The notes beneath the pieces are model-generated. The model searched no databases and was not told where the DNA came from. It worked only from the letters and a program-made list of their open reading frames with translations. A program made the translations under genes and the position numbers. This document shows positions 6,117-6,526 of a stretch of DNA of 64,000 bases, one piece after another. This DNA comes from Myxococcaceae bacterium (GTDB lineage Bacteria > Myxococcota > Myxococcia > Myxococcales > Myxococcaceae): NCBI GenBank assembly GCA_003818285.1, contig RPRB01000003.1:1-64000 (forward strand), given 5' to 3'. Position 1 is the stretch's first letter. Every line of letters starts with the position of its first letter.

Positions 6117-6175
6117 AAAAAGAACCCGCCTCCCCGGTGGCCAGACACTGCGCCTCCAGCCACCAGGGGGCGGGT
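6117..6175 (-). terminator. Rho-independent terminator on the minus strand
   Basis: Arms acccgcctccccggtggc (6124-6141) and gccaccagggggcgggt (6159-6175); minus-strand transcript would end GGCGGGTTCTTTTTG (plus-strand caaaaagaac at 6116-6125). Confidence 0.6.
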
Positions 6176-6217
6176 GTGAAACCTTGCGCCGCTCTCGTGC
6201 GCGCGGCCCTGCTTGCT

Positions 6218-6262
6218 CTACGCCGCGCCCAGAGAGGCGACGCCTTGATTATGCTGGGTCAA
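6218..6262 (-). CDS. Candidate 14-aa small ORF (MTQHNQGVASLGAA) with very strong Shine-Dalgarno
   Basis: Minus strand AAAAGGAGGTGAT (6266-6278), 7-nt spacing from GGAGG to TTG at 6262, stop TAG at 6218-6220, terminator downstream at 6117-6175. No comparative evidence. Confidence 0.35.
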   Translation of the reverse strand: MTQHNQGVASLGAA

Positions 6263-6526
6263 GGCATCACCTCCTTTTGCCCCGCAGGGCGAGTTCGATC
6301 CTGTCGTGGGGGAAGCGGCCGCGCAACGTTTCTTGCGATCGAGTGTGGGCGCGTGGTGTCCCTGCAACGGTGTGCCTGGAAGCGCGGCGTCCCTGCGACG
6401 CTCCGTGGGTCTTCCCTTGGAACGGAGGCTTCCCTGCTGGGGGGGATTGCACCCGGGCCACGAGAGCGGCAGAAGCCCTCCGGCGCCGGGTCGCCCGGGT
6501 GACGGGCGTGCGGCAGCGCCGAGGAG

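Follow-up and report, generated by a model that had tools for sequence, protein, structure and literature searches.

A conserved single-copy small-RNA gene of the Myxococcaceae predicted to switch its own Shine-Dalgarno sequence

What does a stretch of intergenic DNA encode when it carries a long Shine-Dalgarno (SD) sequence, an open reading frame (ORF) of only 14 codons and a strong terminator? We examined such a locus in a 64,000-nt stretch of a Myxococcaceae contig (hereafter, the window; positions refer to it). The original prediction had described an orphan mini-locus on the minus strand, either a translated micro-ORF or a small RNA of 150–200 nt, or else a mimic of the 16S rRNA 3′ end on the plus strand acting as an anti-SD decoy. 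We found the SD, TTG start, 14-codon ORF and terminator each where they had been placed. They belong to a compact, stand-alone small-RNA gene running on the minus strand from about 6326 down to 6117, in the order of promoter-like boxes, a 5′ hairpin, AAAGGAGGTGATGCCTTG, the ORF and an intrinsic terminator:

6298–6326, minus: predicted promoter, with −35 TTGCGC (6326–6321), a 17-nt spacer and −10 CAGGAT (6303–6298)
near 6291, minus: transcription start expected from the predicted promoter
6279–6290, minus: P1, a small 5′ hairpin GCCCTGCGGGGC close to the predicted 5′ end (from the fold)
6260–6277, minus: segment 1, SD plus TTG start (from the pattern search and comparison with the 16S tail)
6278–6266, minus: SD AAAAGGAGGTGAT (read from the sequence)
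6262–6260, minus: TTG start codon (read from the sequence)
6218–6262, minus: micro-ORF MTQHNQGVASLGAA, TTG to TAG, 14 codons (from homologue comparison)
6220–6218, minus: TAG stop (read from the sequence)
6233–6274, minus: P2 hairpin, SD-closed, 6274–6259 pairing with 6248–6233 around a 10-nt loop (minimum free energy (MFE) structure)
6185–6244, minus: P3, SD-open, segment 2 (6244–6224) pairing with segment 3 (6206–6185)
6117–6174, minus: intrinsic terminator, stem CCCGCCCCCTGGTGGC...GGCGGG followed by TTCTTTTT

The 18-mer AAAGGAGGTGATGCCTTG occurred once in the window even when up to three mismatches were allowed (0.04 expected). The RNA from 6300 to 6110 folded with an MFE of −111.7 kcal/mol (z = −5.4), which none of 200 shuffles equaled. 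A hairpin of 7 bp around the start codon had been proposed; the hairpin is present, but its stem is in fact 16 bp long and buries the SD itself. The plus-strand reading did not hold, as it is the minus strand that carries the conserved signals, namely promoter motif, SD, start, stop and terminator. The plus-strand ATCACCTCC is just the SD read from the opposite strand, no counterpart of helix 45 is present, and real 16S ends share only the tail.

We investigated the distribution of the locus among relatives. In the only same-genus genome compared, the mini-locus aligned at 91% identity, and in a same-family genome (G021) at 80%. The SD/ORF and the terminator were the best conserved stretches, and in G021 conservation fell off sharply beyond the mini-locus. 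The SD, hairpin and terminator, whose absence from relatives would have counted against the original prediction, are thus present there. A covariance model built from three sequences found the locus in 66 of 96 Myxococcaceae genomes, at a single site each, and the plain 18-nt pattern AAAGGAGGTGRTGCCTTG (one mismatch or fewer) matched 83 of the 96, one copy each, with no match to the reversed control. After inspection, exactly one copy was accepted in 82 of the 96 genomes, comprising 81 distinct sequences; a second covariance model recovered diverged copies in G006 and G022, giving 83 distinct copies in total. The word orphan was therefore misleading for what is a single-copy, family-wide gene. 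Both pattern and covariance-model searches of other families of the class yielded no acceptable copy. Among the sampled genera, g26 corresponds to Corallococcus (G072 was 100% identical to C. interemptor over 1,395 bp). Genus g23 probably corresponds to Myxococcus, its match to M. qinghaiensis being 86% across 1,361 bp, and the window belongs to a genus of this family that has received less study.

Several matches were set aside. The pattern match at L160 in G012 was attributed to chance (ATG start, no anti-SD segment, other parts absent), as was that at L148 in G058, outside the family, where the ORF stays open for 100 codons and the other parts are likewise absent. The R2 matches in G117, G010 and G025 were not accepted (E 0.4–0.9). 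Five exact 18-mer matches in viral contigs, which might have pointed to a phage origin, were treated as chance because none of the five is followed by an anti-SD and a 13–16-codon ORF. No copy was accepted in 12 of the 96 family genomes, several of which are incomplete, yet G010 and G024 are 97–98% complete. Three small-genome members of one genus (G020, G033 and G115; 2–2.7 Mb) all lack a copy, which suggests loss in that lineage or a later origin of the RNA gene.

The gene lies in three kinds of neighborhood. In class A (n = 63), it is located between an ABC transporter gene (recognized in 57) and pyrG, encoding CTP synthase (63 of 63), which follows downstream on the same strand. In class B (n = 15), a SpoIID-domain gene precedes it at no fewer than 12 loci. 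In class C (n = 3, the window included), it follows the gene for the pyruvate dehydrogenase (PDH) E1β subunit and faces a convergent MATE gene; the PDH gene directly adjoins the RNA in G021, and thioesterase and glyoxalase genes lie between them in the window genus. In some class B loci, such as L109 and L111, an α/β hydrolase gene starts just past the terminator on the same strand, and coupling to it or read-through from the RNA could occur in that part of the class. Upstream of the RNA gene in the window, the intergenic stretch 6370–6428 (GCGGCGTCCCTGCGACGCTCCG...) recurs as an 80% match on a second contig (G000:C301:633-691) and contains GTCCCTGC(A/G)AC twice, close together; it is possibly a small dispersed repeat.

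These neighborhoods bear on whether the element is a leader or attenuator of the next gene. Its competing helices, leader-like ORF and terminator do look the part, and pyrG is suitably placed in class A. However, a conserved co-directional downstream gene was found in class A only, not in class B as a whole nor in class C: the next gene is different or convergent in these, and at the window locus the MATE gene is antisense, as had originally been noted. Moreover, P3 does not overlap the terminator stem, and hence no antiterminator is evident. We regard the attenuator explanation as very improbable. The element has moved place and yet is still found once per genome, and at each location it has a promoter motif and a terminator of its own. 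This speaks for the predicted RNA gene being an independent unit rather than a cis-acting leader.

The layout of the predicted promoter is repeated in the class C relatives. Class-specific promoter motifs were found in the upstream regions of 57 of 63 (A), 11 of 15 (B) and 2 of 3 (C) loci, against 0.03, 0.01 and 0.00 expected in shuffles, respectively, these motifs having been defined post hoc from the same sequences in which they were counted. A strong hairpin followed by a T-tail was recognized under a strict rule in 76 of 81 homologues. A consensus sigma-70 scan of both strands found no site, likewise missing the proposed promoter, and a generic promoter/terminator scanner found nothing at the locus, since the paired loop of the terminator and the non-consensus promoter fall outside the scanner's rules. 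A transcript of roughly 140–180 nt is predicted, from its own promoter to its own terminator. The micro-ORF and the small RNA, originally offered as alternatives, are supported jointly, as an independent predicted transcript of some 175 nt whose conserved ORF would be under control of the SD. A hairpin equivalent to P1 (GCCC-TTC-GGGGC) is found in class B and not in class A. The terminator apex GGTGGCTGGAGGCGCAGTGTCTGGCCA (6161–6135, minus) is identical in all three class C genomes, with parts of the stem varying; this would be unusual for a mere terminator, and the apex may be a protein- or RNA-binding site. In class A loci (L091, L100, L112 and others), the stretch from P3 to the terminator contains a semi-conserved GC(G/A)GT, which may be a site for target pairing or protein binding.

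The SD is exceptional in its match to the ribosome. The 16S rRNA of the family, read in complete relatives, ends in ...GGCTGGATCACCTCCTTT (also given as ...GGGGAACCTGCGGCTGGATCACCTCCTTT), and segment 1 contains a perfect 12-nt complement of the tail AUCACCUCCUUU. All 12 nt match in class A and in the window; class B has one G-U pair, and G021 has a single mismatch (position 2). In the 5.77-Mb assembly, which itself shows no 16S 3′ end, AAAGGAGGTGAT, the 12-mer complementary to this tail, was found at this site alone. In the relatives examined, its sites were the 16S genes plus the RNA gene (3 + 1 in Corallococcus G079, 2 + 1 in G023, 1 + 1 in G099 and 4 + 1 in G029), and one unrelated site was present in each of G060, G086 and G018. 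Segment 1 is thus essentially the most extended SD in the genome, placed on a 15-codon ORF. By prediction, the SD would pair with the 16S tail at −22 to −25 kcal/mol, an energy similar to that of P2 (−21 to −27 kcal/mol).

P2 and P3 are mutually exclusive, and both are available in all 81 sequences. In P2, the partner of the SD/start region is an anti-SD that lies within the ORF and reads GGCGTCCACCTCC in most class A sequences, GGAACCATCTCC in most class B sequences and GGCGTCGCCTCT in the window. P3 encloses the stop codon: here this anti-SD, together with a few bases that follow it, pairs with a stretch beyond the stop, which frees the SD. The P2 duplex was predicted at the energies given above in 81 of 81 sequences (median z = −5.1), and 100% of P2 alignment cells were paired in class A and 98.9% in class B. 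P2 is nearly invariant, because the SD hardly changes, and has almost no covariation of its own. Besides one change from A-U to G-C that distinguishes classes, what supports it is conserved complementarity, which the constraints on P3 and the SD could partly produce. P3 duplexes ranged from −22 to −33 kcal/mol in 81 of 81 sequences, the single-sequence energies being only moderately better than in shuffles, 1.7% of which did as well (median z = −2.7). In class A, we counted 26 double-change cells against 6.2 in shuffles (0 of 500 as many), and 86% of P3 cells were paired compared with 28–54% for slid versions. In class B, three pairs showed double changes (3 of 500 shuffles). The covariation of the predicted P3, assessed in classes A and B (class C, that of the window, comprises three sequences), is genuine. 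RNAs ending at the stop codon, as a nascent transcript would, folded into P2 in 81 of 81 cases, whereas full-length ensembles were split, with P2 above 0.5 in 56 and P3 above 0.5 in 22.

We then asked what is conserved in the ORF. The first in-frame stop came after 14–16 codons in all 81 distinct homologues (TGA in 52, TAG in 19 and TAA in 10), and stop positions in the other two frames were scattered. The two diverged copies have ORFs of 13 and 16 codons and start with GTG in place of TTG. Start, frame and stop are kept in 83 of 83 distinct copies. Distances from the TTG to segment 2 (27, 30 or 33 nt) and from segment 2 to the stop (12 or 15 nt) are all multiples of three, whereas that from the stop to segment 3 takes every residue modulo three. 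The frame-kept distances, together with interchange of stop and start codons, are strong evidence for translation. The amino acids behave otherwise. A dN/dS-like ratio from nearest-neighbor comparisons was 1.55 overall, 2.09 in loop codons and 1.04 at the C terminus, and thus gave no sign of purifying selection on amino acids (1.0–2.1), although the estimate is crude, as the ORF is short, RNA-structure constraint is ignored and the pairs share ancestry. A core reading A-S-T-S or G-T-I-S recurs, being the anti-SD read in frame, and no clear N- or C-terminal motif is common to the classes. In summary, the predicted ORF is conserved, and its putative peptide is not.

Since the dN/dS-like estimate is crude, a fast-evolving peptide stays a rival: the RNA would be a small mRNA for a functional micropeptide of 13–16 residues, with P2 and P3 merely regulating its translation. 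This would account for the constancy of start, frame and stop despite alternative starts and the use of all three stops, and for the recurring Ser/Thr-rich core. That core, however, is exactly the anti-SD segment required to pair with the SD, the dN/dS-like ratio outside it is 1–2, and the absence of a clear shared terminal motif and a mostly hydrophilic product (median GRAVY −0.35), not long enough for a membrane segment, also speak against it. We consider the micropeptide rather unlikely, if the most serious of the rivals. Alternatively, the RNA may be non-coding, either titrating 30S subunits through its uniquely strong SD or pairing with mRNAs through segment 2 or 3, with an incidental ORF. 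An unconserved peptide is what such an RNA would show, and outside this gene the 12-nt complement of the 16S tail hardly occurs in these genomes, other matches in the relatives checked being nearly all 16S genes. A decoy, though, would need neither stop codon nor reading frame, yet both are conserved with interchange of stop and start codons, and segment 2, a candidate for mRNA pairing, is paired in both states. A non-coding role therefore strikes us as unlikely. A toxin mRNA of a type I toxin-antitoxin system, for which metastable SD-sequestering hairpins with an in-ORF anti-SD are typical (PMC6733600), is hardly probable at all: products of 13–16 mostly hydrophilic residues with unconserved amino acids do not resemble a small hydrophobic toxin, and the gene is single-copy and near-universal instead of patchy.

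The explanation we favor, with somewhat better than even confidence, is a translation-gated small RNA, in which the SD toggles between hidden and open and the act of translation would matter more than the peptide. It starts from what the sequences themselves contain, namely a conserved gene, the complementarity of P2, P3 with its covariation and a conserved ORF; we infer transcription, translation, switching in the cell and any downstream target. The RNA would be bistable, with three segments: segment 1, the SD and start; segment 2, the anti-SD inside the ORF, resembling the 16S tail; and segment 3, an SD-like competitor after the stop. In the nascent RNA, segments 1 and 2 would pair first (P2), hiding the SD. 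Once segment 3 is made, its pairing with segment 2 (P3) would replace P2, exposing the SD and allowing translation of the 13–16-codon ORF; opening could be brought about by P3 or by the ribosome. A ribosome terminating 12–15 nt past segment 2 would cover that segment and hold the SD open. The functional output would be the act of translation, through ribosome occupancy or an effect on RNA shape or lifetime, because start, frame and stop are conserved but amino acids are not.

A bolder extension, which we hold as speculative and quite unlikely, is that the switch gauges free ribosomes. A 12-nt SD held by a look-alike of the 16S tail at near-equal pairing energy could read the availability of 30S subunits; translation of a content-free ORF would lock the SD open, and the RNA, through its shape or lifetime, would pass the signal on to the control of growth or development in myxobacteria. 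If true, this would be a new kind of physiological sensor. More generally, a single-copy RNA gene conserved across the family of the developmental model Myxococcus has been missing from Rfam. In it, a ribosome-binding site that is essentially the longest of these genomes is combined with a three-way RNA switch and with an ORF that persists as its peptide changes. The idea that translation serves as signal rather than product is directly testable in a tractable organism.

Finally, we compared the gene with known RNAs. Rfam release 15 gave no match in the window at the gathering threshold, and at a permissive threshold the element drew only sub-threshold chance matches (E 0.8–1.6); among ten homologous loci none matched on the element, the single match being a tRNA elsewhere. 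It is not 6S RNA: G000 and four relatives each have a single 6S locus, and it lies elsewhere. A literature search, with subscription journals and supplements outside its scope, found no report of the RNA gene, and Pxr was the sole Myxococcus sRNA found. Pxr is a small structured RNA with three stem-loops, conserved across Cystobacterineae and encoded between nla19/pxrR and an NADH dehydrogenase gene behind a sigma-54 promoter (PMC5684412, PMC5568312). Our RNA is likewise small and structured, but it differs from Pxr in promoter layout, in its conserved ORF and in its neighbors (ABC transporter/pyrG, SpoIID or PDH/MATE), and this synteny, set against the published location of Pxr, excludes identity.

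Attenuator leaders of the erm and trp type also have a short leader ORF and alternative pairings of segments, 1:2 or 2:3, whereas the present RNA has no consistent regulated gene, carries its own terminator and would switch the SD of the ORF itself. SgrS/SgrT and RNAIII are stand-alone small RNAs with a short ORF, and their peptides are longer and functional as such; here, the ORF alone is conserved and the peptide sequence is not. In aapA3/IsoA3 and hok mRNAs, the SD is buried by an anti-SD downstream or in the ORF, with covariation reported; this pairing forms on the nascent RNA and is replaced by another in the full-length RNA, which is translationally inert, under antisense RNA control and specifies a toxin (PMC6733600). 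Burial of the SD by an anti-SD on the nascent RNA and later re-pairing are common to these mRNAs and our RNA, but here the second structure would free the SD, the RNA is not known to have an antisense partner, and the peptide is unconserved. We therefore file the gene as a new RNA family that differs from known SD switches in having neither a consistent gene to regulate nor a conserved product, and that would work as those switches do, with type I toxin mRNAs as its nearest relatives in mechanism.
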